From: Solimonas sp. SE-A11
GTDB lineage: Bacteria > Pseudomonadota > Gammaproteobacteria > Nevskiales > Nevskiaceae
Assembly (NCBI RefSeq): GCF_030345715.1
Contig: NZ_JAUASX010000022.1
Coordinates: 1 to 64,000 of the forward strand
Reading direction: 5' to 3'
DNA: 64,000 nucleotides
Shown here piece by piece: positions 44,279 through 47,944 of this stretch (position 1 is its first letter; every line of letters begins with the position of its first letter). Both the position numbers and the translations under genes were made by a program. The notes under the pieces are model-generated. The model did no database searches. It saw only the letters and a program-made list of their open reading frames with translations, and was not told the origin of the DNA.

Positions 44279-45175
44279 ATGAATATCACTTCCGCTGCTA
44301 AGAGCTACGGGGACCTGGCGCTGACCGAGGACCGTCGTCCGGGCCAGCCCACCTGGCGCGGGCGCCGCGCGACCGGCGGTGAACCCGCCCTGCATTTCCT
44401 GCACGGCAACGGCTTTTGCGGCGGGGTCTATTGGCCCTTCCTGCAGCCCTTCCTGCCCCGCTACGGCTTGTTCTGCAGCGATATCGAGGGCCATGGCGCC
44501 AGCGAGGCGCCGGCGCGCTTCTCGGGCGTGGGGGCCATCCTGGAGCGCGCCCGCGCGGTGATCGCTGCCCAGGGGCTGGACCAGGGCTCCCTGGTCGGCA
44601 TCGGGCACAGCTTCGGCGGGGCGCTGACCCTGCGCCTGGCGGCCGAGCACCCCGGGTTGTTCCGGGCGGTAGTGCTGCTGGACCCGATCGTGATGCCAGG
44701 GCCGATGTGGGCCGCCGTGCGCTTGGGCAGCTACATCGGCCGCCACCCCATGGCCCAGGGCGCGCGCCGCCGCCGCGAGCGCTGGGCCAGCCGCAGCGAG
44801 GCGTTGGCCCGCCTGCAGGGCCGCGGCATCTATGCCGGCTGGACGGCGGAGGCCATGCAGTGCTTCGTGGACCACGCCCTGCGCGATACCGGCAACGGCG
44901 AGGAAGTGACGCTGGCCTGCCCGCGCGAGCTGGAGGCGGAGATCTTCGAGCAGCCGGTCTGGCCCTGGCGGGCCTTCCGCCGGCTGCAGTGCCCCACCCT
45001 GTTCGTCAGCGGCCAGTCCAGCTACGGCTTCTTCCCCTGGGCCACGCGGGTGGCACGGCGCATGGCGCCCCAGGTGGAGTTCCTGACCCTGCCTGGCGGC
45101 CACTGCTTCATGCAGGAAGACCCGGCGGCCACGCAGGCCGTGGTGGCGGACTTCCTGCGCCGCCAGGGGCTCTGA
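44279..45175 (+). CDS. Alpha/beta hydrolase
   Basis: This 298-residue single-domain hydrolase has the oxyanion region F-L-H-G-N-G-F near residue 40, the nucleophile elbow G-H-S-F-G-G (Ser about 110), a lid region rich in Arg (A-R-R-R-R-E-R-W), and the final G-G-H-C-F-M with the catalytic His. No signal peptide is seen, so it should be cytoplasmic. The substrate cannot be read from the sequence. It is divergent from cysH and ends 59 bases before the PlcP-like gene, whose putative regulatory repeats start just after this gene's stop. Confidence 0.8.
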   Translation: MNITSAAKSYGDLALTEDRRPGQPTWRGRRATGGEPALHFLHGNGFCGGVYWPFLQPFLPRYGLFCSDIEGHGASEAPARFSGVGAILERARAVIAAQGLDQGSLVGIGHSFGGALTLRLAAEHPGLFRAVVLLDPIVMPGPMWAAVRLGSYIGRHPMAQGARRRRERWASRSEALARLQGRGIYAGWTAEAMQCFVDHALRDTGNGEEVTLACPRELEAEIFEQPVWPWRAFRRLQCPTLFVSGQSSYGFFPWATRVARRMAPQVEFLTLPGGHCFMQEDPAATQAVVADFLRRQGL

Positions 45176-45183
45176 CACAAAAA

Positions 45184-45212
45184 CTTCACGGAACCTTCAT
45201 CTTCGCTTCACT
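45184..45212 (+). promoter_or_regulatory. Three 11-bp-spaced CTTCA repeats (Pho-box-like)
   Basis: CTTCA occurs at 45184, 45195 and 45206, that is, at exact 11-bp intervals (CTTCACG, CTTCATC, CTTCACT), 51 to 25 bases before the start of the PlcP-like gene. PhoB boxes are direct repeats of a 7-base element plus 4 bases with this same 11-bp period (consensus CTGTCAT). The match to the base consensus is partial; the spacing and the gene downstream make it notable. Confidence 0.5.
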
Positions 45213-45234
45213 GCGCCGGCGCAAGCTGAGACGC

Positions 45235-46068
45235 ATGAAAAAGGAAGATGCGAGCAACGAGGCGAAGACACACTACCGCACGATCTGGATCTCCGACGTG
45301 CACCTGGGCACGGCCGGCTGCAAGGCCGATCACCTGGTGGACTTCCTCAAGGCCCACACCTGCGACACGCTCTACCTGGTCGGCGACATCGTCGACGGCT
45401 GGAAGCTCACCGGCGGCTGGTTCTGGCCACAGGAGCACACCAACGTGGTCCGCAAGATTCTGACCAAGGCCAAGCGCGACACGAAGGTGGTCTACATCAC
45501 CGGCAACCACGACGAGTTCCTGCGCAAGTTCGTGGACTATCGCCTGGAGATCGGCAACATGCGGCTGGCCAACGAGGCCATCCACATCACCGCCGACGGC
45601 CGCCGTCTGCTGGTGACCCATGGCGACTTCTTCGACGTCATCACGCGCTACCACAAGTGGATCGCGATGGCGGGCGACGCCCTGTACGAAAACACCATGC
45701 GGTTCAACTACTGGTTCAACCGCGGCCGCTCGCTACTGGGCATGCGCTACTGGTCGCTGTCGGCCTTCGCCAAGCAGCACGTCAAGACCGCAGTGAACGT
45801 GGTGTCCACCTTTGAGGAATCGCTGGCCCGCGAATGCCGCCGCCGTCAACTCGACGGCGTGGTCTGCGGCCACATCCACCATGCCGAGGCCCGCAACATT
45901 GACGGCGTGGACTACTACAACTGCGGCGACTGGGTGGAAAGCTGCACCGCCCTGGCCGAGGACCAGAACGGCAGGATCCAGGTGATCCGCTGGGTGCAGT
46001 TGGACCACCTGAACCAGTCTTCGCCCAAGGTCACTCCTTTGCGCAAGCCGGTGCCGGCCGCCGCCTGA
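45235..46068 (+). CDS. PlcP-like metallophosphoesterase (membrane lipid remodelling)
   Basis: This 277-residue calcineurin-type phosphoesterase has all metal-site motifs: S-D-V-H-L-G (about 20-25), G-D-I-V-D-G (about 50), G-N-H-D-E (about 93), T-H-G-D (about 128) and C-G-H-I-H-H (about 207). The blocks W-I-S-D-V-H-L-G-T-A-G-C-K-A-D, Y-W-S-L-S-A-F-A-K, and Y-N-C-G-D-W-V-E-S-C-T-A match PlcP-type phospholipases. These are often mislabelled UDP-2,3-diacylglucosamine hydrolase. PlcP of Sinorhizobium removes the head group from phospholipids during phosphate starvation. No glycolipid synthase is adjacent. Confidence 0.8.
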   Translation: MKKEDASNEAKTHYRTIWISDVHLGTAGCKADHLVDFLKAHTCDTLYLVGDIVDGWKLTGGWFWPQEHTNVVRKILTKAKRDTKVVYITGNHDEFLRKFVDYRLEIGNMRLANEAIHITADGRRLLVTHGDFFDVITRYHKWIAMAGDALYENTMRFNYWFNRGRSLLGMRYWSLSAFAKQHVKTAVNVVSTFEESLARECRRRQLDGVVCGHIHHAEARNIDGVDYYNCGDWVESCTALAEDQNGRIQVIRWVQLDHLNQSSPKVTPLRKPVPAAA

Positions 46069-46156: not shown

Positions 46157-47944
46157 ATGCCCAAGAACATCCGGCTCAAGAATTTCCGGGGGACTGCTGT
46201 CGCCGCCGTCCTGTCGGCGCTGGCCGCCTGCCACTCCAGCGATCCCAGCCCCGCAACGCCGGGCGGCGGCAGCCGCAGCAATGCCCCGGCGCGTTGCAGC
46301 AACTTCGCCCCGGACGATTTCGTCACCCGCAACGACCTGGCGCCGGGCAACCGCCGCAGCGACGCCCAGCTGATGCTGCGCTTCCTGCAGTTCACCGACG
46401 ACCACATCATCGACGACGAGGGGCAGGCCATCAACGGCGCCGGCTTCCTCGATCCGCTGCTGCCGACCTTCGAGTCCGCCATGCGCCTGCAGCAGGAGTA
46501 CTCGGACGAAGTGCTCAACGACATGATCCGCGGAGTCAACGACTGCCATGCGCAGTACCCGGCGGAATTCATGATCGTCACCGGCGACAGTGCCGACCTG
46601 ACCACGCTGGCCGAGACGCGCCGCTTCATCGACAACCTCGACGGCACCTATGACCGCCTCAGCGCCTTCGAGAAGCGCTGCAGCCAGGGCCTGCCGGAGG
46701 GTCTGGTCGCCGCCACCTGCACCCGCTTCACCGGCCGCGGCGTGGCCGACACCCAGAGCGTGGACCCGAACCCGGACGATCCCACCTACCAGCTGCTGGC
46801 CACGCGCACCGTGCGCCAGATCCTCGACGCCACCACCGCCTCGCTGACCGGGCGCGCGGCCGACGGCTCGGTGGACCCCGTGCGCCAGACCACCACGCGC
46901 GCGCCGGGCATGCCCGAGGCACTGCGCTGCCATGCCGGCGACCCCGGCTGCATCAACGACAAGCTCGCCATGCCCTGGATGGTGGCCTTCGGCAACCACG
47001 ACGGCTACGTGCGCGGCACCCTGGCCCTGCCGCAGGACGTGCTCAACGCCGCCCTGTTCGTCGCCGGCCGCCGCTACCTTGCCAACCAGCACGAGTTCAT
47101 CGACGAGTTCTTCGAGACCGACGCCCTGCCCGGTCCGGTAGGCCACGGCTTCCAGCACGCCGACATGGCGCGGCGCCTGGATGACGACCTGCGCAACGAC
47201 GGCTACTACGCCTTCGACGCCGCCGGCGGCCGCTTCCGCATGATCGTGATGAACACCATCATCGACGGGCACGATTCGCGCATCCCCGGCAACCTGCTGC
47301 TGAATCCCTTCGCGCTGTCCGACGGCAGCATCGATGCCGCGCAGTTCGCGTGGATCCAGGCCGAGCTGGCCACCGCCACGGCACGCCGCCAGCTGGTGAT
47401 GGTGTTCAGCCACCATCCTGACCTGACCTTCGCCGAGTTCGGCATGTTCGCCCCGCTGGTGCCGATCGAGGTCACCGCCGCGCAGCTGGACGCCGAACTG
47501 GCCAGCCACCCCAACGTCATCGCCTGGGTCGCCGGCCATACCCACGTGCACCGCATCCGCCCGTTCAAGGTCGAAAACGGCATCGGCTCCAATGGCAGCA
47601 TCGAGGTGCCGGTGGACTGTAAGGGGCCGGGCGCCTGCACCGGCTTCTGGCAGATCGAGAGCGCCTCGCTGATCGACTTCCCCCAAGAGCAACGCCTGAT
47701 CGAGGTCTTCGACAATGGCAACGGCAGCGGTACCATCCGTGCACCGGTGTTGACCCATCGCCTGGAGGGTCCGCGCCGGCTCGCCGAGAGCGACGACCGC
47801 TGCGCCTTCTACCTGACCGACCCCGCCGCCGTGGCGGCCGCGATCACGGAAGCCAACCTCGGCGCGCTCTGCGCCCAGGGCGGCGTGCGCGTCGGCACCG
47901 CCGCCGACCGCAACGTCGACCTGATGTTCAACATGCCCGACTGA
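46157..47944 (+). CDS. Secreted metallophosphoesterase lipoprotein
   Basis: This 595-residue protein has a lipobox L-A-A-C near residue 25 and a Ser/Pro/Gly linker. Its phosphoesterase core is spread by long insertions: F-T-D-D-H-I (about 78), V-T-G-D-S-A-D (about 138), F-G-N-H-D-G (about 278), F-S-H-H-P-D (about 418) and G-H-T-H-V-H (about 460). The first motif has Asp-Asp-His instead of Asp-x-His, still a plausible metal site. Several cysteines suit an oxidising periplasm. It follows the PlcP-like gene by 88 bases, so a role in scavenging phosphate outside the cytoplasm is inferred. Confidence 0.78.
   Translation: MPKNIRLKNFRGTAVAAVLSALAACHSSDPSPATPGGGSRSNAPARCSNFAPDDFVTRNDLAPGNRRSDAQLMLRFLQFTDDHIIDDEGQAINGAGFLDPLLPTFESAMRLQQEYSDEVLNDMIRGVNDCHAQYPAEFMIVTGDSADLTTLAETRRFIDNLDGTYDRLSAFEKRCSQGLPEGLVAATCTRFTGRGVADTQSVDPNPDDPTYQLLATRTVRQILDATTASLTGRAADGSVDPVRQTTTRAPGMPEALRCHAGDPGCINDKLAMPWMVAFGNHDGYVRGTLALPQDVLNAALFVAGRRYLANQHEFIDEFFETDALPGPVGHGFQHADMARRLDDDLRNDGYYAFDAAGGRFRMIVMNTIIDGHDSRIPGNLLLNPFALSDGSIDAAQFAWIQAELATATARRQLVMVFSHHPDLTFAEFGMFAPLVPIEVTAAQLDAELASHPNVIAWVAGHTHVHRIRPFKVENGIGSNGSIEVPVDCKGPGACTGFWQIESASLIDFPQEQRLIEVFDNGNGSGTIRAPVLTHRLEGPRRLAESDDRCAFYLTDPAAVAAAITEANLGALCAQGGVRVGTAADRNVDLMFNMPD

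Follow-up and report, generated by a model that had tools for sequence, protein, structure and literature searches.

A predicted Pho-regulated PlcP phospholipase in Solimonas and a candidate PF13528 glycosyltransferase partner

The plcP locus and its upstream repeat array

The window, by which we mean the whole stretch of 64 kb of Solimonas sp. SE-A11 DNA that was analysed, codes at 45235..46068 (+ strand) for a calcineurin-like metallophosphoesterase of 277 residues (P0001), assigned as a PlcP orthologue by sequence identities and a phylogenetic tree. The likely start codon of the gene is the ATG at 45235 and not a start at 45184; the gene ends at 46068. It is preceded on the same strand by a gene for an alpha/beta hydrolase of 298 residues (44279..45175). 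The downstream gene (46157-47944) encodes a second metallophosphoesterase-like protein, 595 residues long and with a lipoprotein-like start, which comes nearest to the TIGR03767 model at a score below the cut-off (163.5 of 330.75 bits).

The original prediction reported three CTTCA elements at an exact 11-bp spacing ahead of the gene. Both direct reading and a pattern search found them on the + strand at 45184, 45195 and 45206 (45184..45210). The array is longer than was claimed, as one more heptamer, CTGACAC, lies one period upstream of the three CTTCA units. The complete predicted PhoB-binding array (CTGACAC aaaa ACTTCAC ggaa CCTTCAT cttc GCTTCAC) thus spans 45172..45211 on the + strand, with heptamers of 11-bp period starting at 45172, 45183, 45194 and 45205, and ends 23 bp before the ATG. 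Its first heptamer holds the TGA stop codon (45173-45175) of the hydrolase gene. The pattern CTTCA-N6-CTTCA-N6-CTTCA has a single match on both strands of the window and occurs in none of 100 shuffles. With two mismatches allowed there is still one site in the window, and four shuffles have one each (mean 0.04), which rules out a chance repeat. In the four genomes of the genus that we examined (SE-A11, G001, G002 and G003) the position of the array aligns without gaps, and the stop codon and the first heptamer are identical.

Placement of the protein between PlcP and LpxH

P0001 is 58.7% identical to the PlcP of Pseudomonas aeruginosa, 44.7% identical to that of Sinorhizobium meliloti (275 aligned residues) and 22.1% identical to the LpxH of its own genome (C2:67093-67773). 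The P. aeruginosa locus was taken as the published one by the glycosyltransferase gene next downstream, as in PA3219-PA3218, and the S. meliloti locus by the adjoining genes for an acyl-homoserine-lactone synthase and a LuxR-type protein; we take SMc00171, a neighbour of sinRI, to be the S. meliloti PlcP. Among named genomes, the closest relatives of P0001 come from a Solimonas MAG (97%) and from S. fluminis (95%). The tree comprised 88 rows (86 different sequences) gathered by similarity to either query. It separates 67 PlcP-like rows, including the window protein, from 21 LpxH rows, including the LpxH of SE-A11, with a branch support of 100/100 and with a long-branch warning on both sides; the two published PlcPs were compared pairwise and are not among the rows. 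The original prediction described the product as PlcP-like and named a closer placement with LpxH as an outcome that would speak against it. The identities to both PlcPs and the tree bear out the former and reject the latter, and the genome carries an LpxH of its own.

Against the LpxH model, with its cut-off of 190.35 bits, P0001 scores 41.6-41.7 bits and the LpxH of SE-A11 251.9 bits. Since the P. aeruginosa and S. meliloti PlcPs score 44.5 and 38.9 bits, a sub-threshold LpxH score is what a PlcP looks like. Nine residues (D21, H23, D51, N91, H92, D93, H129, H213 and H215), presumably those that form the metal site of the fold, do not vary across an alignment of 24 homologues. P0001 and S. 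meliloti PlcP have the same active-site residues, and the active-site motif reads GNHD in PlcPs versus GNRD in the LpxH of SE-A11. The AlphaFold model of P0001 has a mean pLDDT of 74.1 and is weak around residues 131-190. Of the 61 genomes searched, 58 (SE-A11 among them) have an orthologue of P0001 at E<1e-70, a weak LpxH-like match in G054 not being counted.

Several additional PlcP-like genes came up in these searches. A second PlcP-like protein of SE-A11 (L092, C38:57011-57742) is 46.5% identical to P0001 and has counterparts in the three other genomes of the genus searched; its active-site residues are intact, its branch is long and the SE-A11 copy has no Pho box, and it is perhaps a constitutive or retargeted paralogue. 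A fragment at C4:146675-147028 of the same genome (L003; 36% identical, with an internal stop) is apparently a pseudogene. Two genomes, G013 (L270) and G024 (L271), carry a tandem pair of plcP genes on one strand. Two MAG contigs labelled Verrucomicrobia (L137 and L144) code for PlcPs of the Nevskiales type (78% and 70% identical), one of them (L137) having a zero-length end branch beside L011 in the tree; both contigs are probably misbinned. Finally, plcP is present on three P. aeruginosa plasmid records (NZ_CP137508, CP075839 and NZ_CP042268), and in the one of these examined it is followed by a glycosyltransferase gene.

Pho boxes and candidate partner genes

To score Pho boxes, a heptamer matrix was trained on 19 pstS or phoU upstream regions from 17 genomes of the same family. 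Training was seeded with CTGTCAT-like heptamers and excluded plcP. For eight training regions (L102-L109) the starts were chosen manually, with boxes already known to be there, and L101 was left out, its region having no match to the PstS query. Scoring with a PhoB matrix had been proposed along with the original prediction, and the family-trained matrix recovers the window site with p values of 0.041 (two units), 0.009 (three) and 0.004 (four), all per locus, uncorrected and relative to the rest of the same loci as background. The heptamers of the window are degenerate, the individual units scoring 3.4, 3.6, 5.7 and 2.6 bits against CTGTCAY. At the same position, the three-unit score is 19.8 in S. 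fluminis (G001), 16.6 in G003, 12.7 in the window and 11.9 in G002. The window value is reached by 2.3% of 263 other upstream regions, and GCTTCAT units resembling those of the window are seen in the pstS promoters of two relatives (L106 and L107). Having at least two heptamers at 11-bp spacing that score on the matrix, the array is, judged at the sequence level, a predicted PhoB-binding site.

With three units at 11-bp spacing and p<0.05, boxes were found at 35 of the 52 distinct plcP loci (17 fail), at 28 of the 30 loci examined (of 51 found) for a glycosyltransferase of the PF13528 family, at all 27 olsB loci and at none of 20 lpxH loci; with four units, one of the 20 lpxH loci passes. The same three-unit test at spacings of 9, 10, 12 and 13 bp gave 3, 5, 4 and 9 of 52 for plcP, 1, 3, 3 and 1 of 30 for the glycosyltransferase, 1, 5, 2 and 0 of 27 for olsB and 1, 0, 6 and 0 of 20 for lpxH. 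This off-spacing control is imperfectly flat (lpxH, 6/20 at 12 bp), and two units at 10 bp are found at 11 of the 27 olsB loci. When starts were anchored by conservation and the 95th percentile of the 263 other upstream regions was used as the threshold, 34/52 plcP, 27/30 glycosyltransferase, 27/27 olsB and 0/20 lpxH loci passed. At the same threshold, the starts of the longest frames gave 13/40, 19/29, 18/20 and 0/19, respectively, with 0/5 for phoU and 5/9 and 5/8 for two pstS groups. The control set itself is not free of real Pho genes, since its top scorers include a UDP-glucose dehydrogenase gene, an SqdB-like gene, two genes for Agt and porin-like genes from pst loci. In the SE-A11 genome, a simple search for two consensus units showed no excess (37 matches versus 34 for the reversed pattern).

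According to the original prediction, the usual partner genes are not adjacent to plcP, and a search for btaAB, olsB and agt was suggested. The former is true at the locus itself, yet incomplete for the genome, as olsBA and a Pho-boxed glycosyltransferase gene reside on other contigs; the search recovered olsB, whereas neither Agt nor BtaA was found. S. meliloti PlcP, which shares its active-site residues with P0001, has a betaine lipid as its partner. In SE-A11, by contrast, BtaA was not found, and a betaine lipid is ruled out as the sink, the BtaA family being over its cut-off in 0 of 41 genomes. Agt is likewise ruled out as the sink in SE-A11, where nothing at 1e-5 matched an Agt query taken from a plcP-agt locus of the Pseudomonas type; strong Agt matches (E<1e-80) are found in 5 of the 41 genomes, all belonging to family f6.

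What SE-A11 does have is an OlsB-type protein with an Acetyltransf_5 domain (C8:116047-116352), followed by an OlsA-like acyltransferase of the PlsC type. The best NCBIfam matches of the two, OlsB at 148.2 of 350 bits and OlsA at 145.2 of 300, are below the cut-offs. A second unlinked locus (C14:23520-24608) codes for an MJ1255-like glycosyltransferase, the sole Pfam match of which is PF13528. The enzyme did not show homology to the GT4 Agt that stands beside Pseudomonas-type plcP and scores below the cut-off of TIGR00661 (102.2 of 195.9 bits); in the Protein Data Bank, no relatives were found at E 0.01 with the G012 sequence as query. Upstream of the glycosyltransferase gene lies the box CTGTCAC-GCTTCGC-CCGTCAC (p=0.006 for three units, 0.068 for two) and upstream of olsB the box GCGTCAC-CTGACAT-CCGTAAT (p=0.002). 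The phoX gene (PF05787) of the same genome has CTGTCAT-ACGTCAT-CTGACAT, and contig C37 carries the genes pst, phoU, phoB and phoR. After the glycosyltransferase gene on C14, on the same strand, comes a gene for a patatin-like phospholipase (L258:7783-9027), and look-alikes occupy the equivalent position in S. fluminis (L259) and in G003 (L260).

The PF13528 glycosyltransferase occurs in 51 of the 61 genomes. Wider searches recovered it from 3 of 199 genomes of the phylum (threshold 1e-10) and from 6 of 369 of the class (threshold 1e-30), SE-A11 being included in each count. From this difference we consider the enzyme to be largely a trait of the order. Its gene adjoins plcP in G012, G019, G037, G040 and G363, each from a different genus; the first four are among 50 genomes of the order in which both genes are present, and G363 lies outside the order. 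The two genes are divergent in three of the five, whereas in G037 and G363 they share a strand, with plcP coming shortly after the glycosyltransferase gene. In G012 and G019, plcP stands beside olsB, olsA and the glycosyltransferase gene; in G363 some 40 bp separate the glycosyltransferase and plcP matches, which share a strand, and olsB is divergent. The arrangement in G037 is the most extended: a box of 26.1 bits is followed on one strand by a nucleotide-sugar dehydrogenase gene and, after 25 bp, by the glycosyltransferase gene and plcP, with a PhoX gene adjoining. The dehydrogenase is a probable UDP-glucose dehydrogenase (ugd), its best equivalog being UDP-glucose 6-dehydrogenase at a score below the cut-off (491 of 700 bits). 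The G037 glycosyltransferase gene (L247) fails the box test, which would fit transcription of the gene from the promoter of ugd. Because ugd supplies UDP-glucuronate, glucuronosyl-diacylglycerol may be guessed as the product, a guess that rests on this one genome.

Two genomes that have no PF13528 enzyme, G044 and G047, have Agt adjoining plcP. In three loci of family f6 (L265, L268 and L269), Agt shares the locus with an SqdB-like gene, the best match of which is UDP-sulfoquinovose synthase, below the cut-off. High box scores at the SqdB-like gene of L265 and at Agt in L267 and in L269 suggest a Pho-controlled sulfolipid in this family.

Membrane lipid remodelling as the preferred reading

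Taken as a whole, the data are best explained by a PhoB-controlled plcP, the product of which would release diacylglycerol, with replacement lipids made through the PF13528 glycosyltransferase and OlsBA; we give this reading a probability of about 0.78. Low phosphate would bring PhoB to the four-heptamer array and switch on plcP. As a phospholipase C belonging to the metallophosphoesterase superfamily, PlcP would then cleave membrane phospholipids into diacylglycerol and a phosphorylated head group, presumably in a Mn-dependent reaction. The glycosyltransferase would stand in for Agt and convert diacylglycerol, its predicted acceptor, into a glycolipid, possibly glucuronosyl-diacylglycerol, using a UDP-sugar as the likely donor, and OlsBA would add ornithine lipid. 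The replacement lipids would thus come from two unlinked loci, olsBA and that of the glycosyltransferase, each with Pho boxes of its own. PhoB binding and induction by phosphate limitation are likewise predictions. The grounds, all of them at the level of sequence, are the family placement, the conserved active-site residues, the boxes at three loci, the adjacency in relatives and the lack of a canonical Agt or BtaA among the genes found. Weighing against the reading are the weak heptamers of the window, the two-unit consensus search that showed no excess, the 17 plcP loci that fail the three-unit test, the uneven off-spacing controls, the lower counts obtained with longest-frame starts, and the adjacency of glycosyltransferase gene and plcP in just four of the 50 genomes of the order. 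A more specific version, in which Nevskiales and some relatives combine PlcP remodelling with a Pho-controlled PF13528 (MJ1255-like) enzyme, from a Pfam family different from that of Agt, making glucuronosyl-diacylglycerol, UDP-glucuronate coming from a Pho-controlled UDP-glucose dehydrogenase, has in our estimate even odds.

An enzyme of lipid A synthesis would be one alternative, as the solved structures closest to P0001, both by sequence and by fold, are those of LpxH, and an LpxH label stands under the match in 20 of the 25 listed plasmid records. The same label is found at the PlcP loci of P. aeruginosa and S. meliloti, however, and PlcP homologues are commonly labelled LpxH in public records. 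Since P0001 falls far short of the LpxH cut-off (41.6 versus 190.35 bits), a separate LpxH is encoded elsewhere in the genome (251.9 bits) and P0001 lies on the other side of the tree, we rejected its identity as an LpxH-type UDP-2,3-diacylglucosamine diphosphatase. The GNHD motif in place of GNRD and the presence of Pho boxes at plcP, with none at the 20 lpxH loci in the three-unit test, also speak against this identity, which we regard as extremely improbable. One could also accept the enzyme as a PlcP and see in the CTTCA array a decayed remnant that no longer works as a Pho box. The low unit scores would fit this, as would the stronger boxes in two of the three sister genomes (G001 and G003). 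Decay is nevertheless quite unlikely, given that the phasing of all four units is kept (p=0.004), that so few of the other upstream regions reach the three-unit score and that GCTTCAT units also occur in the two pstS promoters.

The most serious competitor concerns the partner and not plcP. PlcP and the glycosyltransferase may be co-regulated and yet belong to separate pathways, the latter decorating surface polysaccharide or LPS and the diacylglycerol being recycled or else consumed by some enzyme that escaped recognition. UDP-glucuronate also feeds polysaccharides, and the glycosyltransferase has no characterised homologue in hand, given the Protein Data Bank result and the TIGR00661 score. 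On the other hand, its gene adjoins plcP in five genera, twice on the same strand just upstream, and no canonical Agt or BtaA was found that could use the diacylglycerol. We consider separate pathways rather unlikely, and retain diacylglycerol glycosylation as the preferred reading.

Much of this scheme has parallels. The P. aeruginosa PlcP-Agt1 pair (PA3219-PA3218) has a Pho box upstream, and mutants show that PlcP feeds glycolipid synthesis (PMC8528852). A neutral loss of 193 marks a hexuronic-acid head group both there and in the methanotroph report PMC9239053. That PlcP resembles the window's in identity (58.7%) and in the upstream Pho box, but there the glycosyltransferase gene directly follows plcP, whereas in SE-A11 the Agt search gave nothing at 1e-5. 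In reports on marine bacteria (PMC4796936) and type Ia methanotrophs (PMC9239053), plcP is described without an adjacent agt, with partners elsewhere or with another putative glycosyltransferase nearby. The enzymes named in the passages concerned are Agt (GT4), those of Devers et al. and the DAG glycosyltransferase known from Bacillus subtilis; a PF13528 enzyme, to which the Solimonas candidate belongs, is not among them. Known glycoglycerolipid synthases belong to families GT4, GT21 and GT28, according to an excerpt of PMC8231724. Acinetobacter baumannii olsB has a Pho box and provides ornithine lipid under phosphate limitation; olsA is unlinked there (PMC11828411), whereas in SE-A11 an OlsA-like acyltransferase gene follows olsB.

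PlcP remodelling, its Pho control, Pho-controlled olsB and plcP lacking a nearby agt are therefore already in print, and the window plcP itself is another member of the known PlcP family. The new part is the Pho-linked PF13528 glycosyltransferase as a PlcP partner. In the open-licence literature, among the matches listed, we found neither such a partner nor any link of PF13528, MJ1255 or VC2487 to glycolipids, and neither Solimonas nor Nevskia was named. Earlier reports of plcP without agt, in the parts seen, left the lipid sink open (PMC4796936, PMC9239053); here, regulation taken with gene order points to one particular candidate, the PF13528 glycosyltransferase. The enzyme encoded in the window probably allows Solimonas to recover phosphate from its membrane lipids during phosphate shortage, and predicted Pho-type control sites are common to plcP and a separate, little-studied glycosyltransferase that may rebuild the membrane with sugar lipids.
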